48,800 nt of DNA from Verrucomicrobiota bacterium (GTDB lineage Bacteria; Verrucomicrobiota; Verrucomicrobiia; Limisphaerales; UBA8199), in the NCBI GenBank assembly GCA_029974925.1, contig JARKQH010000149.1, positions 1 through 48,800 of the forward strand, read 5' to 3'. Every line of letters starts with the position of its first letter. The stretch's first letter is position 1. The notes under the pieces are model-generated. The model was not told the DNA's origin and did no database searches. It was given only the letters and a program-made list of their open reading frames with translations. The translations under genes were made by a program, and so were the position numbers. Below, piece after piece: positions 34,236-46,762 of this stretch.

Positions 34236-34714
34236 GACGCCCCCCCACGCTGCGGTGAGCCCCCGCGACGGCTTGAAGGGGGAGGGAACCCGTCGGCGCG
34301 TCGCAATACGACCGCATCACTAAATGTTAAAACAAAAAAGGCTCCATCCAACCTACACGAATCTCTGACACAATACGTCAGGCTTCGGTTGGAGCAGAGC
34401 CTGAGGCAATATGGCGCACAAACCGCCGCGCAAAGAGAAAAAATGAGAGGTGAAAGAGCCCTTTGTCCGGACTTTCTCCCGCCCGCCCCTGCGGGCGACC
34501 CGACCTCAGCGATCTGGATCAACAAAAATGTACCGGCGGATTCGGGCCCTGTAAGACCGCTATTTCAGCCCGCGGCCTTTTGTTCGCCATACTCAACCTC
34601 GGCGCTGAATTCTCCACCGCCCAAAAGCCCCTTGCCCAATACGCCGGCGCGGCCGGCTGCTCTATCGTCCCCAGGGAGGAAGCCCCGTCATTCTGGCCAG
34701 AGTAAGACGACCCC
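34236..34714. other. 479-bp intergenic stretch ahead of the DUF3800 gene; possible degraded island boundary
   Basis: Composition becomes richer in A and T (for example GTTAAAACAAAAAAGG near 34327). A 7-bp inverted repeat (TCAGGCT 34378-34384 with AGCCTGA 34398-34404) is present. No tRNA, no transposase and no clear coding signal are seen, apart from the doubtful small frame at 34463-34705. It may be the left junction of a horizontally acquired segment that includes the DUF3800 gene. Confidence 0.35.
34463..34705 (+). CDS. Doubtful small open frame upstream of the DUF3800 gene
   Basis: A possible 80-codon frame beginning at TTG and ending 9 bp before the DUF3800 start. The second half (LLFAILNLGAEFSTAQKPLA...SFWPE) has a more protein-like composition than the first, which looks like translated non-coding DNA. 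No Shine-Dalgarno sequence or known domain is apparent. It could be the remnant of a truncated gene or random. Listed because it would be translationally linked to the next gene if real. Confidence 0.15.
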   Translation: MSGLSPARPCGRPDLSDLDQQKCTGGFGPCKTAISARGLLFAILNLGAEFSTAQKPLAQYAGAAGCSIVPREEAPSFWPE

Positions 34715-41896: not shown

Positions 41897-42691
41897 ATGA
41901 AAGCGCGCGCTCATGGAAGAATTCGGGGGTTCACGCTCATTGAACTGCTGGTCGTGATCGCGATCATTGCCATCTTGGCGGCGATGCTGCTGCCGGCGCT
42001 GAGCCGGGCCAAGAGCCGGGCGCACCAGGCGCGTTGCACGTCGAACATGCGGAATTGGGGGTTTGCCACCGTCATGTACCTGTCGGATTTTCGGGATACC
42101 CTGCCGCTGTTTGGCGATTTGTCCACCGACTACACGCGGGAATTCTGGCACGCGAAACTGGCGCCCTACGTCGTGCGCGCGACCCAGATGGCGGTCACCT
42201 TCAACGTGACGGACATCTACACCAACGAGGTGCGCAAATGCCCCGGTGGCAGCTACGGGACGGTGCCGTTTTACCGGGGGACGGCGTCCTCGGCCGGGAG
42301 CTGGAACTGCTGGATCGGGGCCAATTTCGGCGCCTACGGCTCGCCGTTAAGCGGGCCGTTTTATTACGGCGACCGCACGCCGCCGCTCAAAGCTTCGCGC
42401 ATTCGCAAGCCGGCCGACGCCCTGATGTACATGGACACCATCACCCACTACGTTTACTCGCCCGTCGAGCCCACCTACAAATTCACGCTGGACCTCAACG
42501 GCGACGGCAAGGCGGACACCATGGCGCGGTATCCGGACACGCCGTTCAACTCCGGGCGGCCGACGGTGCACGCCGATGGCGCAAATGTGACGTTGCTGGA
42601 CGGGCACGTCGAGCGCGTGCCGTTCAAGAAACTGTGGGAAATTGACGGCGCCAACAACGTGGTGCACACCTTCTGGTATCTCGAGGACTAG
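41897..42691 (+). CDS. Type IV prepilin-like protein with H-X9-DG domain
   Basis: 264 residues. [22 protein letters not shown] is a strong prepilin signal with an 11-residue leader, followed by [21 protein letters not shown]. The C-terminal [18 protein letters not shown] fits the H-X9-DG processing-associated motif exactly (His, nine residues, Asp-Gly). [15 protein letters not shown] resembles a calcium loop. It is a paralogue in architecture of the protein at 14533. No pilus assembly genes are adjacent. Its TAG stop overlaps the mutS TAG on the opposite strand within a shared CTAG. Confidence 0.92.
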
Positions 42692-45399
42692 GCGAACAGG
42701 TCCATTTGCGGCGGCGGAGCAAGCTGCTTGAGCCGCTCGCGTTCGCGCAGGTGGCGGGTCGCATGCCGGACGGTGCCTTCCGGCGTGAGCTCGGATTCCT
42801 CGAGGTTGCGCAGGATTTCCTTGGCCCGCTCGAGGACGGGGCGGGGCACCCCCGCCAGCCGGGCGACCTGGATGCCATAGCTCTTGTCCGTGCCGCCCTC
42901 GACGATTTTGTGGAGGAAGACCACTTGGTCGCGCCATTCGCGGACGGCGACATTGAAGTTCTTGAGGCGCGGGAGGCGGCCCGCCAGCTCGGTCAATTCG
43001 TGGTAATGCGTGGCAAAGAGCGTCTTGGCCCCGATCTGGTTGTGCAGATGCTCGACGATGCTCCAGGCCAGGCTCAGGCCGTCGAAGGTGCTGGTGCCCC
43101 GCCCGATTTCATCCAGAATGATCAGGCTCCGGGCGGTCGCATGGTTCAGGATGTTGGCCGTCTCGCACATCTCGACCATGAAGGTGGACTGGCCGCGGGC
43201 CAGGTCGTCGCTGGCGCCAATCCGGGTGAAAATGCGGTCCACCAAATCAATCCGCGCGCGCGCGGCGGGGACGAAGGAGCCGGTATGGGCCAGCAGCACC
43301 AGCAGCGCCACCTGCCGGATGTAGGTGCTCTTGCCGGCCATGTTGGGGCCGGTGATCAGCGCAATGCGGCACTGATCGTCGAACTCGGCGTCATTGGGCA
43401 CAAACCGCTCTTCGACCAGGTGCTGCTCGAGCACCGGGTGACGCCCGTCGCGAATCACCAGCCGGCCTTCGTTCCCGATTTCCGGCCGGCAGTAACCGTG
43501 CAGCCGGGCGGTTTCCGCAAAGCTGGCCAGCACGTCCAGCCGCGCCAGCGCGGCCGCCGTGGCTTGAATCGCGGCCAGGTGGCCGAGCACCTGTTCGCGC
43601 ACTCGTTGAAACAGTTCGTATTCCAGTTTCAGGCTCCGCTCCTCCGCGCCAAGAATCCGGCCTTCCATTTCCTTCAGTTCCGGGGTGACGAACCGTTCGC
43701 CGTTGGCAATGGTCTGTTTGCGGATGTAATGGGGCGGCACCTTGTCGAGGTTGGCCCGCGTGACCTCAATGTAGTAGCCGAAGACGGAGTTGAAGCGGAT
43801 TTTGAGCGATTGAATCCCCGTCCGATTGATCTCCTCCTGCTGCAACCGGGCAATCCAATCCTTGCCGCCCCGCATGGCCGCGCGCAACTCATCCAGCGCC
43901 GGATCAAACCCGTCGCGGATAAGCCCGCCCTCCTTGAGCGCCAGCGGCGGTTCGTCCACAATGGCGCGCGCGATCACCTCCACCAGCTCGGGCAGCTCGG
44001 TTAGGTCGTCCACGAGCTGCCGCAACAGTTCGGTGCCGCCCCGGCGTGTGGCCTCCGGCGGCGCCAGAGAGTCGTCGCGGAGGAGGGTTCCACCCGCCGG
44101 GCCGCCGGCGGGGGAGGTTTCAATGTGACCGATCAGTTCCCGCAGGGTCTGGCGCAGGGCCGGCAACTGTTCGAGCCCCTGGCGCAGGGCCACCAGGTCC
44201 CGGGCCGTGCCCGCTCCCGAACTCAGCCGGCCCACCGTCCGTTCGAGATCGCGCACCTGCGCCAGTTGGGCGCGGAACCGGTCCAAGACGGCTGCGTCTT
44301 CCAGAAAAGCCTGAACCGCGTCCTGGCGTTGACGAATCGGCTCGACCGCCGCCAGCGGCTGCGAGAGCCAGTCGCGCAGCCGGCGCGCCCCCATCGGCGT
44401 GACCGTCCGGTTGAGCGCGCCGTACAGGCAGGCGTTGCGGGGCGCATCGTGGTGAAGCGGCTCCAGAATTTCGAGATGCCGCAACGTGATGTAATCGAGG
44501 CCGAGAAAATCGCTGCGCTGATAGAAGGACAGCCGCGTCAGACTCGCAGCGTCGCGGCGCAAATGCTGCGTTAAATAGTGCAGCAGGGCGCCGGCCGCCC
44601 CGATGGCCGCCGTGCGGTCCTTGAGACCAAATCCATCCAGCGCGGCCACTTTGAAATGGTCGCGCACCGTGAAAATGGCGGTTTCAGGAGCAAACACCCA
44701 ATCTTCATACCCATTGAGCATCCACCCAAACGCGGCAGCGGGTGGCGGCGGGCTGGAATTCCCGCCCGGCGCGGCGGGCGGGGCGGGCGAAACGGCCTTG
44801 GCCGGAGCCGGCCCCGCGGGGGGCGGCGCCGGCCGCAGCCCGCCTCCTCGCAAGAGGTCCCGCAGGGCGGCCGCTTCGGCCGGGTGAATGATTTCCGCGG
44901 GACGAAGTCGTTGAAGCTCCGTCAGGAGGGCGGTTTCTCCCTCCAGTTCGGTTGCCTGAAAATCCCCGGTGGTCAGGTCGGCAAACGCCAGGCCGAACGT
45001 CGAGCCGAGGGAACAAACCGCGGCGAGGAAATTGTTGCGCTCGGCCGCCAGCATCCGCTCATCAAAGTGCGTGCCGGGACTCAGAATCTGCGTGACCTCG
45101 CGTTTGACCAGGTGGCCCGGCCGCGCGTCCTCCATCTGGTCGCAAATGGCCACTTTGCGTCCCGCTTTCAACAGCCGGGCGATGTAACTGTTGGCGGCGT
45201 GGAACGGGATGCCGCACATGGGAACCACCCCGCGCCGGGTCAGGGCGACATTGAGCAACTGCGCCCCCACTTGGGCGTCCTCGAAAAACATCTCGTAAAA
45301 GTCGCCCAGCCGGAACAGCAAAAGCGCGTCCTTGGGCAGCTCGCTCTTGATCCGGCGATACTGCGCCATCATCGGCGTAAGTTTTCCGTCACTGGCCAT
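42688..45399 (-). CDS. mutS: DNA mismatch repair ATPase MutS
   Basis: 903 residues, full length. The mismatch-reading Phe-X-Glu is in [13 protein letters not shown] (domain I). The Walker A loop [10 protein letters not shown] lies near residue 684, followed by the signature-region motif [11 protein letters not shown], the Walker [17 protein letters not shown] and ATHYHEL. The clamp and lever domains lie between. An Ala/Pro-rich insertion (about residues 190-225, [20 protein letters not shown]...) in the connector region is unusual and probably a flexible loop. MutS recognises mispairs and recruits MutL. The short C-terminus ends PPPQMDLFA, a beta-clamp-binding-like QMDLF motif. Confidence 0.97.
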
Positions 45400-45437: not shown

Positions 45438-45496
45438 AAAATTATCCGGGACACCGCCCGGCACGCTTCGGCATGGGCAGGGAGGGCAAAAGCAAA

Positions 45497-45620
45497 GGCG
45501 AGGCATAGTTAAGGAGATAGGCGCTCCCGCACGCGGGATTCGAGCCACCGCAGTGGCATGTCCTGACGCCCCGGAACAACGATCTCGAATCCGGTATTTG
45601 GACCGAACTTATGCCTCGCC
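45497..45620. repeat. 124-nt nested inverted-repeat element upstream of cbiM
   Basis: The ends GGCGAGGCATA (45497-45507) and TATGCCTCGCC (45610-45620) are perfect 11-bp inverted repeats. Inside, GGATTCGAG and CTCGAATCC form a second perfect 9-bp pair, and GCCACCGCAGTGGC and TCCCGCACGCGGGA form small hairpins. The arms are thus two inverted copies of a similar unit. AGCAA occurs 1 nt outside the left end and 2 nt outside the right end, a possible imperfect target duplication. It could be a MITE-like element or a structured leader RNA for the transporter genes. Confidence 0.5.
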
Positions 45621-45793
45621 CCAGCAATTTCGACTGGCCGCCAGCGGGTTGCAACCGGAAGTTATTCACCGTATTCACCAAAGACCCCCGCCGGCTTTCT
45701 CCATTAGCCCCGGCCCGATAACTGGGTTGCATCGCCGGGCGCCGAAGGGTTATCGTGAAGGCTGCGCGGCCCGGTGGTGCGGGCCGGACTCGA

Positions 45794-46762
45794 ATGCATC
45801 TGCCTGATGGATTTCTGGATACGAAAACGGCGCTGTTCTCGGCGGGAGTGGCGGCCGCAGGGGTGGGGTTTGCCGTGCGGGAGGTGCGCGCCACCTTGGA
45901 GCCGCGTCGAATGCCCCTGCTGGGCCTGGCGGCGGCCTTTGTCTTCGCCGCGCAGATGCTGAATTTCCCGGTGGTGGGAGGAACCTCGGGGCACCTGACG
46001 GGGGGTGTGCTGACCGCAGTTCTGCTGGGGCCGGCGGCAGCGGTTGTGGTGCTGACCTGTGTGTTGGTGGTGCAATGCCTGGTTTTTGCGGACGGAGGGT
46101 TGATGGCCTTGGGCGCCAACGTTTTCAACATGGCGATTCTCAGCGTCTTCGGTGGTTATTTTGCTTTTTGGGCCGCGGCCCGGCTGGTGCGGGGCAACTC
46201 GGTTCGCGCGACGGTCTTTGCCGCCGCGTTCGCGGGTTGGGTCGGAACGGTTCTGGCCTCGATTTCGGTGGCGGGACAGTTGGCGCTGTCGGGCACGGTG
46301 CCGTGGGGGCTGGCGTTTCCGGCGATGGCCAATGTGCACATGCTGATTGGCATCGGGGAGGGGCTGGCCACCGGCCTGATCACCCTGGCGGTGCTGCGTA
46401 TCCGGCCGGACCTGGTGGCGGGGGCGCAGGCGCAGGCCGCCGCGGCCGGATGGTCGTGGGTGCCGTACGGGCTGTTGGTTTCGGTCGGGCTCGCGGTGTT
46501 TGTCGCGCCGTTTGCCTCGCCGTGGCCGGACGGCTTGGAATCGGTTGCCGCGAAGCTGGGTTTTGAGGAGCAGGCGGGCCGTTCGGCATTTGCCGCGCCG
46601 TTCGCCGAATACGAGGTTCCGGGGGTTGGCTCGGCAACGTTGGCGACCGCACTGGCGGGCCTGGTGGGCACCGTGCTTGCCTTTGGGGCCGCGTATTTGC
46701 TGGCCCGGTTGCTGGTACCGTCGCTCGGGACCCCCCACAAGGATGCGCCTTCCAGGAACTGA
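45794..46762 (+). CDS. cbiM: Cobalt/nickel ECF transporter substrate-binding component CbiM with fused PDGLE domain
   Basis: 322 residues from the ATG at 45794, required because the mature N-terminus must be Met-His: MHLPDGFLD carries the His2 that coordinates Co(II)/Ni(II). Seven or so transmembrane helices follow (LNFPVVGGTSGHLTGG, QCLVFADGGLMALGANVFNM). The C-terminal ~85 residues contain SPWPDGLESVAAKLGFE, a PDGLE domain that in other genomes is the separate CbiN/NikN protein, with a final membrane helix. It imports cobalt or nickel with CbiQ and CbiO, encoded next with overlapping ends. Confidence 0.93.
   Translation: MHLPDGFLDTKTALFSAGVAAAGVGFAVREVRATLEPRRMPLLGLAAAFVFAAQMLNFPVVGGTSGHLTGGVLTAVLLGPAAAVVVLTCVLVVQCLVFADGGLMALGANVFNMAILSVFGGYFAFWAAARLVRGNSVRATVFAAAFAGWVGTVLASISVAGQLALSGTVPWGLAFPAMANVHMLIGIGEGLATGLITLAVLRIRPDLVAGAQAQAAAAGWSWVPYGLLVSVGLAVFVAPFASPWPDGLESVAAKLGFEEQAGRSAFAAPFAEYEVPGVGSATLATALAGLVGTVLAFGAAYLLARLLVPSLGTPHKDAPSRN

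Follow-up and report, generated by a model that had tools for sequence, protein, structure and literature searches.

The element at positions 45497 to 45621 of the window (by which we mean the whole stretch of DNA analysed, 48,800 nucleotides long) is quite likely a free-standing, trans-acting gene for a structured RNA of about 125 nt, which would be transcribed from the minus strand by its own promoter and would end with a closing stem, P0, and a U-tract. Seven covarying helices, including two pseudoknots, are found in copies from two phyla, and in one order most copies share a DnaA-box-like promoter element at a fixed place. Comparison of the copies establishes, at the level of sequence, the strand, the helices, both pseudoknot pairings, the independence from neighbouring genes, the box and the U-tract. 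The element belongs to a known kind, the orphan structured RNAs, while the family itself is new to Rfam 15. Orphan structured RNAs with equally tight conserved cores have often later proved to be ribozymes, riboswitches or the cores of ribonucleoproteins (RNPs). Here, the RNA most likely represents a new family of structured RNAs, which would act in trans and probably bind a protein. Given the compact fold, the lack of a catalogued family and the patchy recurrence in distant bacteria, its use as a free-standing RNA in cells is probable. Its expression, structure and binding partner can be tested directly with the covariance model, the list of members and the table of contexts.

The locus and its inverted repeats

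Pfam matches place the element between two divergent genes, mutS (42688 to 45399, minus strand) and cbiM (45755 to 46762, plus strand). The mutS start codon lies 97 nt downstream of the RNA and the gene runs in the same direction. Some listed open reading frames overlap the element and were put aside on judgement alone. ARAGORN found no tRNA gene and no tRNA-like fold in the window.

A preliminary description of this DNA had drawn attention to a nested inverted-repeat architecture, and its components are readily found: a perfect 11-bp terminal repeat (45497 to 45507 and 45610 to 45620), a perfect inner 9-bp repeat (45536 to 45544 and 45584 to 45592) and two small hairpins (GCCAC..GTGGC and CCCGC..GCGGG). 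Of the two repeats, the outer one is the closing stem P0; the inner one corresponds to no conserved helix, its letters instead contributing to portions of c, d, f and g. Taken alone, the inverted repeats are unremarkable and weak evidence. Among 2000 Markov-resampled stretches of 501 nt, 50 contained an inverted repeat of 11 bp whose loop measured 3 to 150 nt, and the 48.8-kb window has such repeats at seven places. It is conservation and covariation, not the repeats by themselves, that lift the element above chance. The folding energy is lower than that of shuffled sequences on both strands, with z -4.94 on the minus strand (0 of 200 shuffles as good) and z -3.24 on the plus strand (2 of 200).

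Covariation among the copies

The existence of an RNA structure is well supported by comparison of homologous sequences. In a MAFFT alignment of 20 copies, 93.6% of cells pair, as against 34–47% when the partners are slid. Changes on both sides are seen in 14 of 34 pairs (7.2 in shuffles), with a covariation score of 0.189 compared with 0.093; none of 500 shuffles reached these values. Among five measures, the number of further pair types was the one that gave a weak result (26 vs. 23.4, a level reached by 46 of 500 shuffles). A larger set of 53 copies, aligned with a covariance model and scored over seven helices, had 94.8% of cells paired (slid controls, 33–47%), both-side changes in 27 of 33 pairs (15.1 in shuffles) and a covariation score of 0.401 vs. 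0.135, with 0 of 500 shuffles reaching the observed value for any of the five measures. Compensatory base changes above controls thus place the element among structured noncoding RNAs, and the check for covariation in relatives that the preliminary description had proposed came out in favour of one.

Five of these helices were in the model to which the 53-copy alignment is fitted. The remaining two, d and e, lie outside the model, and the counts for them are consequently unfitted. For d and e alone, 96.2% of cells pair (26–52% in slid versions) and both-side changes occur in six of nine pairs, compared with 1.9 in shuffles, a figure that 0 of 500 shuffles reached. The 53-row alignment (A4) takes in three poor or partial matches (L125, L131 and L135); a stricter alignment (A5) and the model built on it (R2) contain 49 copies, omitting these three and L130.

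Fold of the RNA

The covariance model matches positions 45480 to 45621 of the minus strand with 114 bits, and the RNA body is read from 45621 to 45497. Its ends are joined by stem P0a, which is the 11-bp repeat: the 5' strand (45610 to 45620) pairs with the 3' strand (45497 to 45507), and the perfect repeat is backed by covariation, with all six pairs counted among the 53 copies changed on both sides. A short extension, P0b (45606 to 45608 with 45508 to 45510), shows both-side changes in four of four pairs. Within P0, helix b joins GUCC (45600 to 45603) to GGAC (45560 to 45563), with both-side changes in four of five pairs. Its letters differ freely among the copies while pairing is kept: GUCC/GGAC in the window, CUUC/GAAG in L059, GUUC/GAAC in L061 and also GACC/GGUC. 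Helix c, in which both strands read CCGG (45591 to 45594 and 45571 to 45574), is paired in 100% of cells; two of its four pairs have changed on both sides and two are invariant.

Helix d joins GAGAU in the apical loop of c (45582 to 45586) to AUCUC (45514 to 45518). It is paired in 93.6% of cells, and all five pairs have changed on both sides, as seen in AAGGUC/GACCUU in L120 and GAUAUC/GAUAUC in L124, compared with GAGAU/AUCUC in the window. Helix e, GGCG (45567 to 45570) with CGCC (45520 to 45523), varies little among the copies: 99.5% of cells are paired, one pair has changed on both sides, one has changed on one side and two are invariant. Two side hairpins complete the fold. Hairpin f (45544 to 45557, GCCAC..GUGGC), read in the sequence, is variable in length and sequence, is missing from two copies (L039 and L041) and stands outside the 53-copy covariation count. 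Hairpin g (45525 to 45538, UCCCGC..GCGGGA), the seventh helix of that count, is paired in 98.1% of cells and has both-side changes in five of five pairs.

The order of strands inside P0 is b c d c' e b' f f' g g' e' d', and d and e would therefore be pseudoknots, provided that b and c form simultaneously. The covariation may fit two pseudoknots or a switch between two alternative folds; we infer that all helices form together. In the resulting model, the closing stem P0a/P0b would hold a hairpin made of b and c, whose apical loop and 3' bulge would be anchored by pseudoknots d and e, respectively, to the segment that immediately precedes the 3' strand of P0, leaving one variable and one conserved side hairpin. 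Such a rigid, conserved core presumably binds a protein or another RNA, in the manner of an RNP or a regulator, with no control of a gene in cis.

Strand, promoter box and 3' end

Read on the minus strand, the 33 pairs contain 56 G-U and 24 A-C cells, an excess that favours this strand over that of cbiM. On the same strand, a U-rich tract, TTTGCTTTT (45488 to 45496), follows the closing stem, and P0 with the tract makes a terminator-like 3' end. Across 49 copies, the 20 nt after P0 hold a mean of 9.4 T, compared with 4.1 in a 20-nt stretch further on. The transcript would thus be expected to end at the closing stem and U-tract. In a consensus scan, a further hairpin resembling a terminator appeared ahead of mutS (45446 to 45461, minus strand), a weak match at one found vs. 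0.6 expected in shuffles.

Upstream of the RNA lies the promoter-associated box GGTGAATAACTT (45659 to 45670, minus strand), which is DnaA-box-like and fits the DnaA-box consensus, TTATNCACA. In the order Limisphaerales, a box resembling GTGAATAACTT is present within 3 mismatches in 29 of 39 copies, as against 5.5% of random windows, though the copies are related and the 29 boxes are not independent events. The count covers 39 of the 40 R2 matches in the order, L131 being left out. The box stands at -48 to -51 (48–51 nt upstream) in 24 of the 39, and ten have no box within 3 mismatches. The 9-mer core of the box has no counterpart within 1 mismatch in any of the 12 copies whose membership of the order is not established. 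Many copies have a TTG-type -35 near the box; the -35 and -10 of the window's own copy are poor, and a promoter scan found none (0.1 expected). The RNA is probably transcribed separately, starting from its own promoter, which in this order would carry the conserved DnaA-box-like site.

The exact box occurs at three sites in the whole 5.7-Mb genome, and no further site was found in 529,509 bases of context. Apart from the site at the RNA, exact TGTGAATAACTT sites of the genome are seen only at L233 and L234. One of the two is upstream of an mraZ-like open reading frame (named by eye) and the other lies in a stretch with three DnaA-box-like sites. The two largest open reading frames of that stretch comprise a DUF2167 gene and one with no Pfam match; neither is dnaA, and consequently the stretch is not callable as oriC.

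DnaA might be expected to bind the predicted box. If true, the DnaA-box reading would tie synthesis of the RNA to the replication cycle. The fuller proposal, that the fixed box couples synthesis to replication and that the RNA is the core of an undescribed RNP or trans-regulator in Verrucomicrobiota, we regard as speculative and rather unlikely.

Another candidate function is catalysis, by self-cleavage or otherwise. Pseudoknotted cores are known from several small ribozymes, and the compact double-pseudoknot core seen here, which includes nucleotides that hardly vary among copies of the two phyla, would suit a ribozyme. However, no Rfam ribozyme matches it, and it is a free-standing unit with a promoter box and a terminator-like end, neither of which a small self-cleaving ribozyme needs. 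We consider catalysis quite improbable.

Independence from neighbouring genes

Fifty-two contexts of the RNA were compared, including two weak matches (L131 and L187). The nearest open reading frame of at least 150 aa on the 3' side shares the strand of the RNA in 22 contexts and runs opposite to it in 24, with none found in six. Neither mutS nor cbiM recurs in any other context (at 40% identity across half of the query). Neighbour clusters, which rest on a simple choice of the longest open reading frames, have as their commonest family a sulfatase-like one (named by eye), in 6 of 52 contexts. Several flanking genes are shared in two of six same-genus pairs (G008/G012 and G083/G188), one gene is shared in another pair and none in the other three. 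Outside genera, G074 and G165 are the only pair to have two flanking genes in common. With no neighbour linkage and a random downstream strand, the RNA behaves as an independent gene and not as a leader.

The possibility of a cis-acting leader or riboswitch, of cbiM on the plus strand or of mutS on the minus strand, nonetheless deserves attention, as the element sits between the two divergent genes, with mutS codirectional and starting shortly downstream. The preliminary description had placed it in the leader region of a metal transporter operon. A cbiM leader did not hold: the RNA is encoded on the other strand and heads for mutS, it has a promoter-like element and a U-tract of its own, and the G-U pairs fit the minus strand better. 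The absence of mutS and cbiM from the other contexts and the even split of downstream strands count against a leader of either gene. The riboswitches known to act on such genes offer no help; the RNA is on the wrong strand for cbiM, and covariance models for cobalamin and NiCo riboswitches, whose use the preliminary description had suggested, gave 0 matches between 45380 and 45820 on both strands at E up to 10. Its remark that no common riboswitch could be recognised was right, with zero Rfam matches even at that threshold. A cis-acting role is therefore very improbable; strand, context and the lack of an Rfam match led us to reject it.

A free-standing RNA could also be a base-pairing regulatory small RNA, in which the conserved loops AAGUA and CUUUGU would serve as seeds for mRNA targets. 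The promoter-like box, the terminator-like end and the lack of linkage to neighbour genes would all be expected of one. However, positions conserved in at least 90% of 49 copies are largely in or adjoining the core helices, and long stretches that are both conserved and unpaired are not evident among these copies. We regard this reading as unlikely.

Distribution and mode of spread

The element has no second copy in its own genome, where the next match has an E of 0.8. With BLASTN, matches at E 8.8e-6 or better were found in 11 of 57 relatives, two of which had a second copy. A core pattern run over one collection of named genomes (84,980 species) identified 13 contigs, most from Verrucomicrobia or similar bacteria and two from Cloacimonadota; five of the 13 appear to coincide with loci already found by BLASTN. 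Covariance models extended the list. Of 245 genomes of the order Limisphaerales, model R1, built from 20 copies, picked out 38 as carriers at E 0.01, and R2, built from 49, picked out 36 at E 0.001, with one or two copies per carrier; G058 and G069 account for the difference, being carriers at the looser threshold and dropped at the stricter one. Across the phylum, 8 of 387 genomes had a match (the window's own genome and one weak match included), as did 9 of 268 genomes in another class of the phylum (four already in the phylum count and one a weak partial match) and 3 of 124 genomes of Cloacimonadota, two of them the core-pattern matches. The patchiness looks real, since the better model, R2, added no carrier in the order, although draft genomes may miss large fragments.

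Three genomes carry two copies. In each, the paired copies are 46–60% identical, and all six are closer to a copy in another genome than to their partner. This divergence, together with the nearer foreign copies, suggests gain by horizontal transfer, and part of the biology of the RNA could be selfish. No match was found in 50,697 phage and 72,556 plasmid records. From viral contigs picked by pattern, 27 gave one weak covariance-model match (E 0.18) and a further 10 gave none at E up to 1; these pattern scans demand an almost exact match to the core, so that more diverged copies would escape them.

A mobile origin had been raised in the preliminary description, which suggested a MITE as the other possibility. 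A perfect terminal inverted repeat, a patchy distribution and locations that differ between families are what a MITE or another non-autonomous inverted-repeat transposable element would show. However, the search for further copies that it had recommended gave a single one in the genome and one or two per carrier in the order. The sequence of the terminal repeat differs between copies while its pairing is kept, the upstream box and downstream U-tract stand at fixed places outside the repeat, and phages, plasmids and the 37 viral contigs provided nothing better than the weak match above. A single genomic copy and compensatory changes in all seven helices are not the signature of a MITE, and we consider one exceedingly unlikely; single copy number and ends that vary yet stay paired were the grounds for its rejection. 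A single copy with no covariation in relatives had been named as the outcome that would speak against the element as first described: the copy is indeed single, and the covariation is present.

Islands with Ro60, RtcB and tRNA arrays

Six of the 52 contexts place the RNA in or beside islands with RtcB, Ro60, HNH, SPFH or tRNA arrays. The island of G074 holds TROVE, SPFH, HNH and RtcB genes with 11 tRNAs; that of G165 has TROVE, HNH, eight tRNAs and a GOLLD RNA; that of G061 has HNH and two tRNAs; and that of G036 combines RtcB with a partial HNH gene and 14 tRNAs. In G183 and G123, RtcB is 323 and 55 nt away, respectively. The Ro60 protein of the islands has TROVE plus vWA_Ro60 domains, and in the four tRNA-bearing islands the RNA and the tRNAs occupy opposite strands. 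Overall, 3 of 50 contexts scanned for tRNAs contain arrays of eight or more, a fourth holds two, and seven further contexts have a single tRNA each. Limisphaerales islands with up to 14 tRNA genes together with RtcB, Ro60 (TROVE), SPFH and HNH (L156, L163, L139 and L222 to L231) occur with or without the present RNA.

These surroundings raise the question of whether the RNA belongs functionally to such islands, be they for RNA repair by Ro60/RtcB or tRNA arrays, as a new Y-RNA-like ligand of the TROVE protein Ro60. In Y RNAs, a stem joins both ends of the molecule, and the present RNA likewise has an end-joining stem. The Ro60 profile PF05731 is also commoner among carriers, in 12 of 38 vs. 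21 of 207 other genomes (Fisher p 0.0012) or, with carriers defined more strictly, in 12 of 36 vs. 21 of 209 (p 0.0007), neither comparison being corrected for kinship or genome size. However, no match to PF05731 was obtained at E 1e-5 in 24 of the 36 carriers, among them the window's own genome (97.6% completeness). The profile can miss the RtcR-linked TROVE type, which one of the 24 (G079) has. That type has no apparent link to the RNA: it occurs in 5 of 36 carriers, compared with 3 of 44 selected non-carriers (p 0.46, uncorrected for kinship or genome size; the non-carriers were hand-picked from the larger listed genomes and are no random sample), and no match to it was found in the window's own genome. 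RtcB at E 1e-20 shows no clear difference as a partner, in 24 of 36 carriers (counted by eye) vs. 113 of 209 others (p 0.20, likewise uncorrected for kinship or genome size). Moreover, in three of three genomes scanned, the RtcR-linked TROVE operon already has the known Y RNA, YrlA, and the same three also carry the present RNA. The link to these islands is weak and not established, and a role as a Ro60 ligand strikes us as improbable.

The TROVE/YrlA/RtcB operons of the three carrier genomes are at L218, L219 and L220, with an RtcR regulator beside each (by Pfam for L218, as are its TROVE and RtcB, and by eye for the others). At L221 (G116:C278), the RtcR-linked TROVE gene is split in two, and one of the parts contains an in-frame TGA.

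Comparison with known RNA families

At gathering thresholds, no family of Rfam 15 covers the present RNA. The window's copy has no match at E up to 10, eight further loci have none at E up to 1, and the only matches for L054 and L120 are far below gathering scores. No description of this RNA was recognised among the matches listed in a search of the open-access literature.

YrlA (RF02553) is comparable in being small, structured and encoded close to genes for TROVE/Ro60 and RtcB, and it is present in three of the same genomes. However, the present RNA has no match to it at E up to 10, and neither L054 nor L120 matches it, although the same Rfam search does detect YrlA in L218 to L220. The tRNA-like fold that ARAGORN failed to find in the window is a further difference, as is the lack of a PF05731 match in two-thirds of the carriers.

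GOLLD (RF02032) is likewise a structured RNA among tRNA arrays with HNH genes and with no assigned function, and in G165 (L163) a copy lies about 3.4 kb from the present RNA. That copy (L163:9579–10017, minus strand, 203.7 bits) is between the tRNA-Cys and Ro60 genes of a tRNA array. GOLLD has been placed in a mycobacterial tRNA cluster with HNH and is given a length of more than 400 nt (PMC6582537). The present RNA, in contrast, is about 125 nt long with no Rfam match, and few of its contexts are large tRNA arrays.

Orphans of the Acido-Lenti-1 type (RF01687) are similar in kind, as free-standing structured RNAs found by comparative genomics; Acido-Lenti-1 is listed among such motifs in PMC2864571. 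The present RNA differs in having no Rfam match at gathering thresholds. Two Acido-Lenti-1 RNAs on opposite strands are found at L048:1059–1242, about 6.5 kb from a copy of the RNA. The window also contains, at 34338 to 34403 on the minus strand, a DUF3800-VIII RNA (RF03075) that scores 42.5 bits against a gathering score of 40.2.
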